From positions 225,001-289,000 of the forward strand of contig NZ_RWGU01000048.1 in NCBI RefSeq assembly GCF_003944755.1: a stretch of 64,000 nt of DNA. The letters are read 5' to 3'. Source of the DNA: Rhodovulum robiginosum. GTDB lineage: Bacteria > Pseudomonadota > Alphaproteobacteria > Rhodobacterales > Rhodobacteraceae. Numbering within the stretch: the stretch's first letter is position 1; each line of letters begins with the position of its first letter. The translations under genes were made by a program, and so were the position numbers. Below, one piece after another: positions 1,237-63,404 of the stretch. The notes below the pieces were generated by a model, which was given only the letters and a program-made list of their open reading frames with translations, was not told the DNA's origin and searched no databases.

Positions 1237-1286
1237 AAACCCATGCCTCTTCTGCACCCCTCGGGGTGCATCGGAGGCCAGGGTTT
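1237..1286 (+). other. Extended hairpin in 23S helix 45 region
   Basis: The stem starts with AAACCC (1237-1242) paired to GGGTTT (1281-1286) and continues through GCCTC/GAGGC and TGCACCC/GGGTGCA to a short loop. It is longer than helix 45 of E. coli and lies where Rhodobacter 23S rRNA is known to be fragmented by RNase III. Fragmentation here is inferred. Confidence 0.5.
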
Positions 1287-1831
1287 GACTGTGAAGCCGG
1301 GGCGTGAGCCATCCGGTGGAGTGATCACTAGCGAGAATGATGACATGAGTAGCGACAAACAGGGTGAGAGACCCTGTCGCCGAAAGTCCAAGGGTTCCTG
1401 CTTAAAGCTAATCTGAGCAGGGTAAGCCGGCCCCTAAGGCGAGGCCGAAAGGCGTAGTCGATGGGAACCTGGTTAATATTCCAGGGCCAGGAGGATGTGA
1501 CGGATCGGAGCGGCGTGCAGTCCTTATCGGATTGGGCTGCATCTCAACCGGTTCCAGGAAATAGCCCTCCATCAGACCGTACCCTAAACCGACACAGGTG
1601 GACTGGTAGAGAATACCAAGGCGCTTGAGAGAACGATGTTGAAGGAACTCGGCAAAATACCTCCGTAAGTTCGCGAGAAGGAGGCCCGGGCCATGAGGTC
1701 CGGGGGCACAAACCAGGGGGTGGCGACTGTTTACTAAAAACACAGGGCTCTGCGAAGTCGCAAGACGACGTATAGGGTCTGACGCCTGCCCGGTGCCGGA
1801 AGGTTAAAAGGAGGGGTGCAAGCTCCGAATT

Positions 1832-39591: not shown

Positions 39592-40409
39592 TGGGCGCGA
39601 CCTGGGTCGCCGCGCTCTTGGCGCTGTTTATCTGGTGGTTCTCCACCGGGGCGATCCTGGTCATCGTCCGCCGCGCGGAACACCGCGGGCGGACGGCCCA
39701 CCAGCGGGCCGCGCTCTTTACCCTGCCGGTGCTGGCCTTCGCCATCGCCGCCTTCGAGGTGACGCGGCACATGGAAACCGTCACCGCCTCTTACGGCGCC
39801 TTCCTGGCGGCCATCGGCATCTGGGGCTGGATCGAACTGGCCTTCCTGACCGGGGTGATCACCGGGCCGAACCGGCACCATTGCGACGACGAGGTGACGG
39901 GCTGGGAAAGGTTCGTGCGCGCCTACGGCACCATCGCCTATCACGAGACGCTCTTGGTGATCGTCGTCTTCGCCATGGTACTGACCAGCCAGGACGCGCC
40001 GAACACGGTCGGCCTGTGGACGTTCATCGTCCTGTTCTTCGCGCGCATCTCTGCCAAGCTGAACCTCTTTCTCGGCGTGCCCAAGATCAACACCGAGTTC
40101 CTGCCGACACCGCTGGCCCACCTGCCCAGCCATTTCCGCATCTCGAAGATGAACTGGATGTTCCCGATTTCGGTCTCGGCGCTCAGCTTTGCTGTCTATT
40201 GCTGGCTGGAACGCTTGATGGTCACCGCCGCGCCCCATGAACAGGTCGGGTTTGCCCTGCTATCGGCGCTGACGGCGCTGGCGCTGCTGGAGCACTGGCT
40301 GATGGTGCTGCCGCTGCCCGACGAGAAACTCTGGCGGTGGATGCTGCCGGCCCGCAAGACCAAGGAAAAGACAACCAAGATGACAGGGGGAGACGCCCAT
40401 GGATTTTGA
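39591..40409 (+). CDS. puhE: Photosynthetic complex assembly protein PuhE
   Basis: A 272-residue membrane protein with about seven hydrophobic helices. It begins [17 protein letters not shown]-like and is typical of PuhE (DUF3623). In R. capsulatus PuhE modulates bacteriochlorophyll production. Its end overlaps hemA by 11 bases. Confidence 0.93.
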
Positions 40410-41613
40410 AGCTGCGTTCCAGGGACAGCTCGACGCGCTCAAGCAAGAGGGAAACTACCGGATTTTCGCCAATCTGGAGCGCCAGTGCGGCGCGTTTCCC
40501 CGCGCCAAGAACCGCGACGACGAAGACGACCGCGAGGTGACCGTCTGGTGCTCGAACGACTATCTCGGCATGGGCCAGCACCCCGAGGTGACGCGCGCCA
40601 TGGTCGAGACGGTGGAACGCTGCGGCGCCGGCGCCGGCGGGACGCGCAACATTTCGGGCACCAACCACCACCACCTGTTGCTGGAGCGCGAACTGGCCGA
40701 GCTGCACGGCAAGGAGGCGGCGCTTCTGTTCACCTCGGGCTACGTGTCGAACTGGGCCGCGCTCTCGACCCTGGGCAGCCGGCTGCCCAACGCGGTGATC
40801 CTGTCGGATGCGCAGAACCACGCCAGCATGATCGAGGGCATCCGCCATTCCCGCGCCGACAAGGTGATATGGAACCACAACGACCCCGAGGATCTGGATC
40901 GCAAGCTCGCCGCGGTCGGCCCGGACCGGCCCAAGATCGTGGCGTTCGAATCCGTCTACTCGATGGACGGCGATATCTGCCCGATGGCCGAGATCGTAGA
41001 GGTCGCCGAAAAGCATGGCGCGATGACCTATCTCGACGAGGTCCACGCGGTCGGCCTTTACGGCGCCCGCGGCGGCGGGATCTCCGAGCAGGAGGGGCTG
41101 GCCGACCGGATCACGCTGATCGAGGGCACGCTGGGCAAGGCGTTCGGTGTGGTCGGCGGCTACATCACCGGCTCGGCCGCGCTCTGCGATTTCATTCGCT
41201 CCTTCGCCAGCGGGTTCATCTTCACAACCGCGCTTCCCCCCGCGGTCGCGGCGGCGGCCACCGCCTCGATCCGGCATCTAAAGCTCAGCGACTGGGAGCG
41301 GCAGAAACAGCGGCGCAACGTGGCGCGCCTGCGCGCGCGTCTCGATGCCGAGGGCATCCCGCATCTGCCCAACCCCAGCCACATCATCCCGGTCATGATC
41401 AAGGACCCGGTGAAATGCCGGATGATCAGCGACATCCTGATGGAAGAGTGGGGCATCTACGTGCAGCCGATCAACTACCCCACCGTGCCCAAAGGCACCG
41501 AGCGGCTGCGCATCACACCCTCGCCGCTGCACACCGAGGCCGATATCGACCATCTGGTCGCGGCGCTGTCCACGCTCTGGCAGCAGTGTGCCATTTCACA
41601 TGCAGTCGCCTGA
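40399..41613 (+). CDS. hemA: 5-Aminolevulinate synthase
   Basis: A 404-residue PLP enzyme that condenses glycine and succinyl-CoA to 5-aminolevulinate, the start of tetrapyrrole synthesis in alphaproteobacteria. The PLP lysine is Lys247 in EGTLGKAFG, and the glycine-rich [12 protein letters not shown] loop is near residue 76. Placing it in the photosynthesis cluster ties precursor supply to pigment synthesis. A second copy elsewhere is possible, as in R. sphaeroides (hemT). Confidence 0.97.
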
Positions 41614-41693: not shown

Positions 41694-42146
41694 ATGAAAA
41701 TGAACCTGGTGCTGGCCGCCGCGATGAGCCTTGCCGCCGCCGCTCCCGTCTTGGCCGAGAGCCATGGCGGCATGGTCGAGGCGTCGGGCGACGCCGCTGC
41801 CGGCGAGAAAGCCTTCCGTCAATGCATCGCCTGCCACGTCGTCGAGAACGACGAGGGCGAAACGCTGGCCGGCCGCGCCGCCAAGGTCGGACCCAACCTT
41901 TATGGCGTCGCCGGGCGCCAGGCCGGTCATATCGAAGGTTTCCGTTACTCCAAGTCGATGGAAGAAGCGGGAGAAGAGGGCCTGGTCTGGACCGAGGAAG
42001 AGTTCGTCAGCTACGTGCAGGACCCGACCTCCTACCTGCGCGAGTATCTGGATGATGCCAAGGCCCGCGGTGCGATGACCCACAAGGTCCGCAAGGAGCA
42101 GGAAGCGATCGACGTCTACGCCTATCTTGCAGACCTCGCCAAGTAA
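41694..42146 (+). CDS. cycA: Cytochrome c2
   Basis: A 150-residue periplasmic cytochrome. A cleavable signal peptide (about residues 1-21, ending VLAES) is followed by the haem motif CIACH and a later Met in ARGAMTHKV as likely axial ligand. It carries electrons from the cytochrome bc1 complex to the reaction centre. The ATG at 41694 follows AGGGAGAGA. A separate promoter in the 80-base gap after hemA is possible (TTGACG at 41632-41637) but weak. Confidence 0.95.
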   Translation: MKMNLVLAAAMSLAAAAPVLAESHGGMVEASGDAAAGEKAFRQCIACHVVENDEGETLAGRAAKVGPNLYGVAGRQAGHIEGFRYSKSMEEAGEEGLVWTEEEFVSYVQDPTSYLREYLDDAKARGAMTHKVRKEQEAIDVYAYLADLAK

Positions 42147-58195: not shown

Positions 58196-59679
58196 TGCTG
58201 ATCCAGGATCATGACAGGGCCGGGGGCTACTGGGGCGCGGTCTACGCGTTCACCGCCGTCAAGGGCCTGCAGGTCGTCATCGACGGGCCGGTCGGGTGTG
58301 AAAACCTGCCGGTGACCTCTGTCCTGCATTACACCGACGCGCTGCCGCCGCACGAGCTGCCCATCGTCGTCACCGGCCTGGGCGAGGAAGAGTTGGGCCG
58401 CGACGGCACCGAGGGCGCGATGAAGCGCGCCTGGAAAACGCTCGACCCGGCGCTGCCAGCGGTGGTCGTCACCGGCTCCATCGCCGAGATGATCGGCGGC
58501 GGCGTCACGCCGCAGGGCACCAATATCCAGCGCTTCCTGCCGCGCACCATCGACGAAGATCAATGGGAAGCGGCCGACCGGGCGATGACCTGGCTCTTCA
58601 CCGAGTTCGGCATGACCAAGGGCCGGATGCCCCCCGAGAAAAAGCGCGAAGAAGGCGCAAAGCCGCGGGTCAATATCCTTGGGCCGATGTATGGCGTGTT
58701 CAACATGCCCTCGGACCTGGCCGAGATCCGCCGGCTGGTCGAAGGCATCGGCGCCGAGGTCAACATGGTGCTGCCCCTGGGCGCGCACCTGGCCGAGATG
58801 CGCAACCTGGTGAATGCCGACGCCAATATCGTGATGTATCGCGAGTTCGGACGCGGCCTCGCCGAGGTGCTGGGCAAGCCCTACCTGCAGGCGCCGGTGG
58901 GCATCGACTCGACCACCAAGTTCCTGCGCAAGCTGGGCGAGATGCTGGGCCTCGACCCCGAGCCCTTCATCACCCGCGAAAAGCATTCGACGATCAAACC
59001 CGTTTGGGACCTGTGGCGTTCCGTCACGCAGGATTTCTTTGCCACGGCCAGCTTCGCCATCGTGGCGAACGAGACCTATGCCCGCGGCATCCGGCACTTC
59101 CTGGAAACCGACATGGGCCTGCCCTGCGCCTTTGCCGTGGCCCGCAAAGCGGGCGCAAAGACCAACAACAACGAGGTTCGCGCGCTGATGGCACAGCATC
59201 GGCCGCTCGTCGTCTTCGGCTCGATCAACGAGAAAATGTACCTTGCCGAGCTCTCGGCGGGGCACGGTCCGAAGCCTGCGTTCATCCCCGCGGGCTTCCC
59301 TGGTGCAGCGATCCGCCGCGCGACCGGCACGCCTTTTATGGGCTACGGTGGGGCCACTTATCTGGTTCAGGAAGTCTGTAATGCGTTGTTCGACGCGCTT
59401 TTCCATATCCTGCCGCTCGGAGCCGAAATGGACTCTGCCGCGGCCACGCCGACAAAGCTGCGGCGCGACTTCCCGTGGGACGAGGACGCCCAGGCGCTTC
59501 TCGACAAGATCGTTGCCGAACACCCCATTCTCACCCGCATCTCTGCCGCCAAATCCCTGCGTGACGCCGCCGAGCGCGCCGCGCTGGAACAGGGTGCCGA
59601 GCGCGTGGTGCGGGAAACCGTCGAAGCCCTCAGGACCGGCGGAATCGAAAAGCTTTCAACAGGAGGACGGACATCATGA
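58195..59679 (+). CDS. bchZ: Chlorophyllide a reductase subunit Z
   Basis: A 494-residue partner of Bch[11 protein letters not shown] (near residue 39) carries a cluster-ligand Cys, and the C-terminal domain (about 420-490) resembles the PCP_red module. Together BchXYZ reduces chlorophyllide ring B to the bacteriochlorin and may also reduce the 8-vinyl group. The end overlaps pufQ by 4 bases. Confidence 0.97.
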
Positions 59680-59897
59680 CCGATCAGACTTCCGACATGC
59701 ACATGGTGCGCACGCACCGTGCGCCCAGGGCGGAATTCACCGTCTATTTCGCCATCATCTTCTTGGCCGCTTTGCCCTTGGCGGTGATCGCCTGGGCGCT
59801 GGCGCTGGTCAAGCAGGGCGACCTGAACACCAAGGGGCCGATCTCGCGGGCATGGAGCCAGGCGCGGATCATCACGCCCATGATTTTCTCCGCCTGA
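59676..59897 (+). CDS. pufQ: PufQ, bacteriochlorophyll/puf assembly protein
   Basis: A 73-residue protein with one membrane helix (about 23-44) and a basic N-terminus. PufQ is needed for normal bacteriochlorophyll formation in Rhodobacter. AGGAGG precedes its ATG within bchZ. It links the bch series to the puf genes. Confidence 0.92.
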
Positions 59898-60026: not shown

Positions 60027-60173
60027 ATGGCTGAATCTGACGTGTCGTTCACCGGTCTGACCGACGAGCAGGCGCAGGAAATCCACGCTGTCTACATGAG
60101 CGGGCTTTGGTTGTTCGCAGCCGTTGCCGGTGTCGCTCACCTGGCAGTGTACATCTGGCGTCCGTGGCTCTGA
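60027..60173 (+). CDS. pufB: Light-harvesting 1 beta polypeptide
   Basis: A 48-residue LH1 beta chain with one membrane helix. His20 and His38 are present; His38 ligates bacteriochlorophyll. The C-terminus IWRPWL is typical. GGAGGAAAG precedes the ATG. Confidence 0.97.
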
Positions 60174-60187
60174 GGAGGACCTGAGAA

Positions 60188-60349
60188 ATGGCAAAATTCT
60201 ACAAGATCTGGATGATCTTCGATCCGCGCCGTGTGCTCGTGGTGCAAGGCGTGTTTCTCATGCTGCTGGCGGTGATGATTCACCTCTTCGTGCTCAGCAA
60301 CCCCTACTTCAACTGGCTGACCGTCGCTGCCGAGAAGGCCGCGGGCTAA
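60188..60349 (+). CDS. pufA: Light-harvesting 1 alpha polypeptide
   Basis: A 53-residue LH1 alpha chain. It begins [15 protein letters not shown], and His32 ligates bacteriochlorophyll; SNPYFNWL follows the helix. It lies 14 bases after pufB. Confidence 0.97.
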
Positions 60350-60494: not shown

Positions 60495-61343
60495 ATGGCA
60501 CTGCTCAGTTTTGAGAAGAAGTATCGCGTCCGTGGAGGGACGCTCATCGGTGGCGATCTGTTCGACTTTTGGGTGGGGCCTTACTATGTAGGCTTCTTCG
60601 GAGTAACGACAGTTTTCTTCGCTACCCTCGGTACCCTGCTTATCCTCTACGGCGCGTCCATGCAGGGGACTTTCAACCCGTGGGTGATTCATATCGCCCC
60701 CCCCGACCTCAGCTACGGTCTGGGGATCGCACCGCTCGCCGACGGCGGGCTATGGCAATTCATCACGGCGTGCGCCCTTGGCGCATTCATCAGCTGGGCC
60801 CTGCGCGAGGTGGAAATCTGCCGCAAGCTCGGGCTTGGTTATCATGTGCCGATCGCGTTCGGCTTCGCGATCCTGGCCTATATGACGCTGGTCGTCTTCC
60901 GCCCGTTGCTGATGGGCGCCTGGGGGCACGGCTTCCCGTACGGCATCTTCAGTCACCTCGACTGGGTGTCAAACACCGGCTACGCCTACCTGCACTTCCA
61001 CTACAACCCGGCGCACATGCTGGCCATCTCGTTGTTCTTCGCAACGGCGATGTTCCTGGCGCTGCACGGCGCGCTGGTGCTCAGCGCCTGTAACCCCGAG
61101 GAAGGCGAAGAGGCGAAGACGCCCGACCATGAAGACGCGTTCTTCCGCGACTTCATCGGCTACTCGGTCGGCACGCTGGGGATTCACCGGGTCGGCTTCC
61201 TGCTGGCCATCAACGCGGTTTTCTTCTCCGCCGTCTGCATCATCATCTCGGGTCCGCTCTGGACCGAGGGGTGGCCTGAATGGTGGACCTGGTGGACCGA
61301 CCTGCCGATCTGGCCGGATGCTGCCGCCGCTGGAGGGATGTAA
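60495..61343 (+). CDS. pufL: Reaction centre L subunit
   Basis: A 282-residue protein with five membrane helices. His154 and His174 (accessory and special-pair bacteriochlorophyll), His191 and His231 (non-haem iron), His169 and Glu213 (near QB) all match known L-subunit positions plus one. The start at 60495 follows GGAGA. Confidence 0.98.
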
Positions 61344-61345
61344 AA

Positions 61346-62314
61346 ATGGCTGAGTATCAGAACATCTTCACCCAGGTTCAGGTCCAGGGCCCGCCCGACT
61401 GGGGCATGGACAACGACAACAACATGATGGAGGAGCGCGTCGGCGGCATCGGCCATGTCGGGTTGCTCGGCTGGTTCGGAAACGCCCAGCTCGGTCCGAT
61501 CTATCTTGGCTGGACCGGCATCGTCGGGCTGCTCTCGGGCTTCATGGCCATCTTCATCGTCGGGCTCAACATGCTCGCTCAGGTGAACTGGTCGCTGGTC
61601 GAGTTGCTGCGCCAGGGCTTCTGGCTCGCGCTCGAGCCTCCGGGGCCGGAATACGGTCTCGGCGTCCCGCCGCTGAGCGAAGGCGGCTGGTATCTGATCG
61701 CCAGCTTCTTCCTTCTGGTCTCGGTGATGACCTGGTGGCTGCGCGCCTATCTGCTCGCCCGCGAGCACAAGATGGGCAAGCACATTGCCTGGGCTTTCGC
61801 CGCGGCGATCTGGCTGTTCCTGGTGCTGGGCCTCATCCGCCCGCTCATGATGGGCAGCTGGTCGGAAATGGTGCCCTACGGCATCTTCCCGCACCTCGAC
61901 TGGACCACGGCCTTCTCGATCCGCTACGGCAACCTCTACTACAACCCGTTCCACGCGCTCTCGATCGCGTTCCTCTACGGTTCTGCGCTGCTCTTTGCGA
62001 TGCACGGCGGTACGATCCTGTCGGGCGCCCGCTTCGGTGCCGAACGCGAGCTGGAGCAGATCTACGACCGGGGCACGGCGGCCGAGCGGACGGCGCTGTT
62101 CTGGCGCTGGACGATGGGCTTCAACGCCACGATCGAAGGCATCCATCGCTGGGCGTGGTGGTTCGCGGTGCTGACCCCGATTACCGGCGGCATCGGCATC
62201 CTGTTGTCGGGCACCGTGGTCGACAACTGGTTCATCTGGGCCCAGGAGCATCACTTCGCGCCTGAGTATATCGCACCCTACGGCTACGAAGCCTATACTG
62301 GGCAAGGAGGCTGA
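61346..62314 (+). CDS. pufM: Reaction centre M subunit
   Basis: A 322-residue protein with five helices. His183, His203, His220, Glu235 and His267 match the pigment and iron ligands plus one. The C-terminus is about 15 residues longer than in R. sphaeroides, as in species with a bound cytochrome subunit. It starts 2 bases after the pufL stop. Confidence 0.98.
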
Positions 62315-62315
62315 C

Positions 62316-63404
62316 ATGCTGAGAATCCCCAAATGGTACAAACAATGGTCCGCGGATAATCCGACCAAGCTTTACGGCCCGGGGATCGTTGTCGGTACGA
62401 TTGGCTTTGCGGTGATCGTCGCGGTGTCTGCGGTGGTCTTCACCAACCCCTACAAGACGACCGACTTCCAGACCGGTCCGCGGGGCATCGGGATGGCCGT
62501 GTCCAAGTTCGTCAAGGACAACCCGCAGGACGATCCCTACGCTGCGCAATACGTTGCCTACGAGCGTGTCGAGGTGCCGGAAGGCACCCCGACCGCGGCC
62601 GAGGCCTACGGTGACAGCGTGGTCGCCTTCGGTGACATGGACCAGGCCAACTTCGACCAACTCACCAAGGCTATGAGCGAGTGGACCGGTGCCGATATCG
62701 TGCTTTACGATAACGGCGAGGTTGACGCGAACATGCTCGAGGTGACCCAGAACTGCATCGAGCTGACGCAGTACCTGAACACCGACTGGGACGGTCACAA
62801 CCTGGCCTCTGACGGGCGTGGCGTGAACTGCTACACCTGCCACCGGGGCGAGCCGATCCCGCCGCAGTCGTGGTTCAAGGCCGGTGCCGTGAACGCTTCG
62901 GCGACGGGCTGGGCGGCGATCCAGAACCGGGTGATGCTCGACAACAAATACACCCAGAGCGAGTTCACCTCGCTGCCGGTGGATGCCGTCGAAAAGTTCC
63001 TGCTCGATGGCGAGAGCATCAAGGTGCACGACCTGGAATCGAGGGTCAACACGTTGCCCGGCGATCCCACCTGGCAGAATGCCGAGCGTACCTTCTCGTT
63101 GATGAACCATCAGTCCAACTCGCTGGACGTGGGCTGTGTCTACTGCCACAACACCCGTGCCTTCTACGACGGCACCCAGGTGACGCCGCAGTGGTCCAGC
63201 ACCATCACAGCGCAGCAGATGCTGATCGACATCAACCAGTATTACCTGGAACCGCGCGCCGAGCTTCTGCCGGCCTCGAGCCTGGGTGACGAGGGCGATG
63301 CCGGCAAGGCCAACTGCGCCACCTGCCACATGGGTGTCGTCAGCCCGCTGAACGGCCGGAACATGGTCGCCGAGTGGCCGGAACTGGCCGCGCCGCTCGA
63401 GTAA
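62316..63404 (+). CDS. pufC: Reaction-centre cytochrome c subunit with three haem motifs
   Basis: A 362-residue periplasmic cytochrome that reduces the photo-oxidised special pair. An uncleaved N-terminal membrane helix (about 22-43) serves as anchor; there is no lipobox Cys. CXXCH motifs occur only at 172-176, 274-278 and 334-338, matching haems 2, 3 and 4 of tetrahaem PufC. The first haem site, expected near 125-140, has no cysteines (WTGADIVLYDNGEVD). Triple-haem subunits are known from Rhodovulum sulfidophilum. It starts 1 base after pufM. Confidence 0.96.
   Translation: MLRIPKWYKQWSADNPTKLYGPGIVVGTIGFAVIVAVSAVVFTNPYKTTDFQTGPRGIGMAVSKFVKDNPQDDPYAAQYVAYERVEVPEGTPTAAEAYGDSVVAFGDMDQANFDQLTKAMSEWTGADIVLYDNGEVDANMLEVTQNCIELTQYLNTDWDGHNLASDGRGVNCYTCHRGEPIPPQSWFKAGAVNASATGWAAIQNRVMLDNKYTQSEFTSLPVDAVEKFLLDGESIKVHDLESRVNTLPGDPTWQNAERTFSLMNHQSNSLDVGCVYCHNTRAFYDGTQVTPQWSSTITAQQMLIDINQYYLEPRAELLPASSLGDEGDAGKANCATCHMGVVSPLNGRNMVAEWPELAAPLE

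Follow-up and report, generated by a model that had tools for sequence, protein, structure and literature searches.

The pufC gene in the 64,000-nucleotide stretch of Rhodovulum DNA analysed here (hereafter the window) almost certainly encodes an ordinary Rhodovulum-type three-haem reaction-centre cytochrome subunit, a reading to which we assign a probability of about 0.93. Its product keeps the binding motifs of haems 2, 3 and 4, has lost haem 1 together with the entire coordination set of that haem, and carries a cysteine in the alignment column that otherwise supplies a methionine ligand to haem 2. The three-haem trait itself is already known, having been described for the same genus. Here we set out the evidence for this assignment, the possible history of the stretch that lacks haem 1 and the route by which electrons would reach the special pair.

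The pufC gene and its missing haem

The open reading frame is intact, begins with ATG and encodes 362 amino acids, and its product scores 255 bits against PF02276 (E 1.4e-75; cut-off 22.4) and 264.7 bits against the NF040706 photo_cyt_PufC profile (curated cut-off 150). The gene order runs from pufQBALM through pufC to the start of dxs (PF13292), with pufC directly after pufLM, the position expected of a gene for this subunit. The features of the operon and of the pufC gene are as follows.

59676..59897, + strand: pufQ (PF05398, 117.9 bits)
60027..60173, + strand: pufB, LH1 beta (PF00556, NF040862)
60188..60349, + strand: pufA, LH1 alpha (PF00556, NF040861)
60495..61343, + strand: pufL (PF00124, 316.9 bits)
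61346..62314, + strand: pufM (PF00124, 339.6 bits)
62316..63404, + strand: pufC, reaction-centre cytochrome subunit, three-haem form (PF02276, NF040706, PDB 9wqv_C)
62601..62753, + strand: region of the lost haem 1, residues ~96-146, without CXXCH (alignment of 116 distinct PufC)
62754..62756, + strand: codon of Cys147, predicted sixth ligand of haem 2 (alignment column)
62796..62798, + strand: codon of His161, predicted sixth ligand of haem 4 (column is His in all 116 proteins)
62829..62843, + strand: CYTCH, haem 2 motif, residues 172-176
63102..63104, + strand: codon of Met263, predicted sixth ligand of haem 3 (column is Met in all 116 proteins)
63135..63149, + strand: CVYCH, haem 3 motif, residues 274-278
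63315..63329, + strand: CATCH, haem 4 motif, residues 334-338

Exactly three CXXCH motifs are present, as the preliminary description of this DNA had reported, and the seven cysteines of the protein fall at residues 147, 172, 175, 274, 277, 334 and 337; three such motifs never arose together in 20,000 shuffled versions of the protein. The alignment puts the motifs at haems 2, 3 and 4, bearing out the assignment that had been made from their spacing. The haem-1 cysteine column holds Cys in all 80 four-haem proteins and a gap in all 36 three-haem proteins, and the axial Met of haem 1 is similarly kept in 80/80 of the former and replaced in 36/36 of the latter, by Thr117 in the window protein. 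Since CXXCH and axial Met are both gone, haem 1 has been lost with its entire coordination set, and the combination of four CXXCH motifs with a haem-1 Met ligand that marks the four-haem form is absent from the window protein.

The sixth-ligand roles of the haem-2, haem-3 and haem-4 columns are presumably those of the known four-haem structures, from which we take them. The haem-2 column holds Cys in all 16 proteins of the genus, and Met in all 20 other three-haem proteins and in all 80 four-haem proteins, so that a Cys ligand is restricted to the Rhodovulum group (16 of the 36 three-haem proteins). Replacement of the haem-2 Met ligand by Cys reportedly defines the Rhodovulum-type three-haem PufC, and Alric and co-workers are reported to have shown in 2004 that the subunit of Rhodovulum sulfidophilum contains a Cys-ligated haem of very low potential. 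This second hallmark of the genus is present in the window protein as Cys147; the preliminary description had recognized the haem loss of the Rhodovulum pattern and overlooked this other half of it. We expect that haem 2 would be a low-potential His/Cys haem with little or no role in normal turnover.

The idea that an error in sequencing or assembly deleted the haem-1 motif of an ordinary four-haem pufC has a vanishingly small chance of being right, because, although the source is one draft assembly in 51 contigs, the frame is intact, the other two frames contain stops and no CXXCH over residues 96-160, third-position GC is 0.85 over these residues against 0.86 for the whole gene, the axial Met of haem 1 is missing as well, and all 16 genomes of the genus that were searched share the three-motif state. 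The lack of CXXCH in the other frames and the normal third-position GC mean that no frameshift hides a haem site, including the cysteine motif near residue 130 whose restoration the preliminary description had allowed for; sequencing error and frameshift alike are ruled out by the frame analysis and the 16 genomes.

Relatives and distribution of the three-haem form

PufC matches were obtained in 16 of 16 genomes of the genus (the source genome included), 73 of 394 of the family, 18 of 385 of the class and 21 of 398 of the phylum, in samples that overlap, and a protein query added seven loci. One weak match that was not confirmed as PufC (L124) was dropped and seven identical copies were removed, leaving 116 distinct proteins. 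Four haems are the commoner form, as anticipated, occurring in 80 of the 116 distinct proteins, in a sample in which the window's genus is over-represented. The survey of pufC genes for the same loss, which had been proposed as a check, returned a three-haem form in 20 of the 73 PufC-bearing family genomes (2 with Cys and 18 with Met at the haem-2 column) and a four-haem form in the other 53. Outside the family, all 26 PufC sampled have four haems and none has the three-haem form. A further three-haem PufC (L038) comes from a metagenome-assembled genome (Alphaproteobacteria). Within the family, one very divergent four-haem PufC (L093, genome G058; end branch 2.13) pairs at support 99 with L122 from another family, perhaps through separate acquisition or long-branch pairing.

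The window protein lies inside the genus group in trees (16 rows, support 100; 5 rows, 100/100), and PufC of Rhodovulum marinum, kholense, visakhapatnamense, adriaticum and bhavnagarense share 68-73% identity with it. The triheme reaction-centre subunit has been called ‘constant’ in Rhodovulum (PMC6256444), which upholds the precedent from that genus on which the preliminary description drew. With its source organism itself placed within Rhodovulum, the window protein represents this known case and not, as that description had implied, a parallel one in a roseobacter. Like the three-haem PufC of Rhodovulum, including that of R. sulfidophilum, it has its CXXCH motifs at haems 2-4, no haem 1 and Cys at the haem-2 column, and it differs from them by ordinary divergence (~70% identity) and in the spacing between haem 3 and haem 4.

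This spacing (window 63150-63329) is 60 in the window protein and, among the other proteins of the genus, in L039 only, being 53 in 14 of the 16 genus proteins. Values in the rest of the family are mostly 60-63, and a deletion therefore seems to have occurred in the genus that is absent from the window protein and L039.

Two sets of structural coordinates provide reference points. PDB 9wqv_C is identical, letter for letter over 355 aligned residues, to the PufC of a member of the genus (G405, locus L042); it matches the window protein at 253 of 362 residues and has the same Cys sites, but its haem-4 motif lies 7 residues earlier. A literature search for a paper on PDB 9wqv found none. PDB 8yy9_C is contained letter for letter, over 352 aligned residues, in L076, in which residues 117, 128, 130 and 131 are L, D, L and E; the cryo-EM paper on Dinoroseobacter shibae names Leu117, Asp128, Leu130 and Glu131 at the lost haem-1 site and enumerates the haem-1 coordination set (PMC12079452). 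The D. shibae PufC (L076; PDB 8yy9 and further entries by sequence) resembles the window protein in having lost haem 1 and its pocket and kept haems 2-4, as that paper describes (PMC12079452), whereas it has Met at the haem-2 column and only ~45% identity. Four-haem PufC, which include that of Blastochloris viridis and most of those sampled, share with the window protein PF02276, haems 2-4 and the haem-3 and haem-4 ligands, and contrast with it in possessing haem 1, the CXXCH and Met of which are present in all 80 proteins sampled.

Descent of the haem-1-less stretch

Our tentative reading, at somewhat less than even odds, is that the haem-1-less stretch arose once and that recombination then carried it from one puf operon to another within the family, while pufM and the rest of pufC had other histories; Rhodovulum would be one descendant, in which the haem-2 ligand later became Cys. 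Repeated convergent loss also fits. In that case the family would have lost haem 1 on several independent occasions, a similar short loop would have emerged by convergence, and Rhodovulum would represent one of the losses, an account that we regard as unlikely while giving it real weight. It draws on the trees, given that PufC trees built without the haem-1 stretch place the three-haem rows in three places, that a single three-haem clade is rejected on 37 hand-chosen PufC rows (p-AU 0.016), and that pufM rejects such a clade both with Rhodovulum (p-AU 8.6e-7) and without it (p-AU 1.3e-4). An 80-row LG+F+G4 run leaned the same way by ~50 log units, its interim values being -24737.9 for the free tree (iteration 110) and -24788.1 for one clade (iteration 100); both searches were unfinished, and we do not rely on them.

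Set against these results, the one-clade PufC tree has a log-likelihood 17.6 higher on 113 rows (p-AU 0.62), a test from which L093, L111 and L122 were left out as long rows, and the three places differ between two trees, with L076 and L085 changing sides. Moreover, the Met-type three-haem rows share a replacement loop that is unlikely to have arisen by chance, in which, by eye, WTGI is found in all 20 rows, WTGIPDL in 15 of them and YQT in 18. Three separate losses as a firm claim, which the quick 116-row tree forced, was given up because the 113-row AU test undercuts it.

Exchange by recombination would leave different parts of the operon with different histories, and the evidence here is mixed. 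The haem-1 stretch alone (32 rows, Rhodovulum left out) joins all 13 Met-type three-haem rows at 100/100 and rejects (p 1.1e-14) a 7-row clade that stands at 100/100 in the rest of PufC. This clustering follows in part from the trait itself, so that its support cannot count as independent evidence of descent. In the pufM tree only 5 of 34 branches are starred, and pufM neither contains nor rejects the 7-row PufC clade (p 0.28). In a sliding comparison, L121 (three haems) agrees with L015 (four haems) at up to 36 of 40 residues outside the haem-1 region, and inside that region at 14 of 37, against 28 of 39 between L121 and L077 (three haems). We suggest, on balance, that a three-haem form that does not follow its neighbouring pufM reflects exchange within the puf operon, and the shared loop letters favour exchange over repeated loss.

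Five Met-type three-haem proteins (L084, L086, L088, L089 and L121) adjoin the four-haem L003, L015, L017 and L119 in the PufC tree and have the same haem-1-less loop as the remaining three-haem rows; these are possibly mosaic genes.

As to the order of events, haem 1 would have been lost first and the change from Met to Cys would have followed in the Rhodovulum ancestor. In PufC trees the Cys form is nested among Met-type three-haem rows (16+14 rows at 99; 5+3 rows at 99/98), which suggests that the loss of haem 1 preceded the ligand change. The order is not secure, because the branch leading to Rhodovulum is long (0.87 in the 116-row tree and 1.16 in the other PufC tree) and this nesting is missing from the pufM tree. 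Exchange of the haem-1-less stretch is the sole part of our account that could be new. A search of the open-access literature by title and abstract start found no paper on it.

Electron donor and route to the special pair

In four-haem complexes, the electron donor docks at haem 1. A likely donor is encoded in the same photosynthesis gene cluster as pufC.

41694..42146, + strand: gene for a cytochrome c2-like protein, probably a soluble electron donor (best PDB match 1cxa CYTOCHROME C2, 142.8 bits)

Its product has a signal-like N-terminus and one CXXCH and matches PF00034 in hmmscan (29 bits against a cut-off of 21.3, E 2.7e-6). A whole-genome PF00034 search that listed no protein of the expected size had suggested that a soluble cytochrome c2 is absent, a possibility that we discarded when a protein search matched window positions 41757-42038, inside this gene. 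A hemA-like gene (ALA synthase, by eye) at 40399-41613 lies shortly before it. For HiPIP as an alternative donor, the source genome gave no PF01355 match at E <= 0.001. Elsewhere in that genome, contig C36 encodes at 1276-1794 (+) a cytochrome c of 172 aa with a hydrophobic N-terminus (L134), relatives of which, 51-57% identical over nearly their full length, occur in each of the five further genomes that were searched; its presence makes a second reaction-centre donor possible.

In the published AlphaFold 3 model of the D. shibae complex, cytochrome c2 sits close to the plane of the membrane at a distance of 18.4 Å from haem 403 (haem 3), with an ipTM of 0.69, and the authors argue that haem 402 (haem 2), which is almost embedded, is maybe not directly functional (PMC12079452). 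By analogy with this model, we consider it reasonably probable that electrons in the window species pass from cytochrome c2 to haem 3 and on to the special pair. The window PufC is a reaction-centre subunit anchored by its N-terminus, with the haem 3 site beside the special pair and the sites of haems 4 and 2 kept; cytochrome c2 would dock low on it, near the membrane, and reduce haem 3, leaving haem 2 off the main electron path. Such a D. shibae-like route would be the simplest for the window protein, the more so if haem 2 is Cys-ligated. Two features count against the comparison, namely that the D. shibae model is of moderate confidence and that its haem-2 column is Met, not Cys. The preliminary description had proposed that loss of haem 1 alters the outermost entry point and with it the docking of cytochrome c2; a possible shift of electron entry still stands, and the D. 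shibae model has c2 near haem 3 at the membrane plane, not at an altered outermost entry point (PMC12079452).

Charge offers little guidance to docking. The c2-like protein has 14 K+R and 24 D+E, and the window PufC, from residue 46, has 19 K+R and 44 D+E; as both are acidic overall, simple docking of opposite charges is not obvious. Surface charge at the stretches proposed as the c2 site does not tell the family's three-haem PufC from its four-haem PufC either, and its use as a sign that docking has moved was rejected.

Cys-ligated haem 2 could conversely be an extra entry for low-potential donors, for instance from sulphide or thiosulphate oxidation, making the subunit a two-input device. 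The invariance of the Cys in all 16 genus proteins may mean a use, sox genes have been reported in Rhodovulum species (PMC6256444), and the source genome holds several further c-type cytochrome genes, known only as c-type. However, invariance inside one genus may reflect shared descent, donor and docking site both lack a candidate, and haem 402 of D. shibae is described as almost embedded (PMC12079452), all of which makes this second input improbable in our view.

The window PufC is a clean added example of a reaction-centre cytochrome without its outermost haem, and the loss of that haem is relevant to how cytochrome c2 gains access to the special pair as well as to the transition from a bound cytochrome to none. 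One published view is that the photosynthesis cluster behaves as a whole and is not transferred in parts (PMC6739100). If exchange of the haem-1-less stretch between puf operons holds, it would speak against this one-unit view, and the entry of electrons into photosynthesis would be a swappable part.
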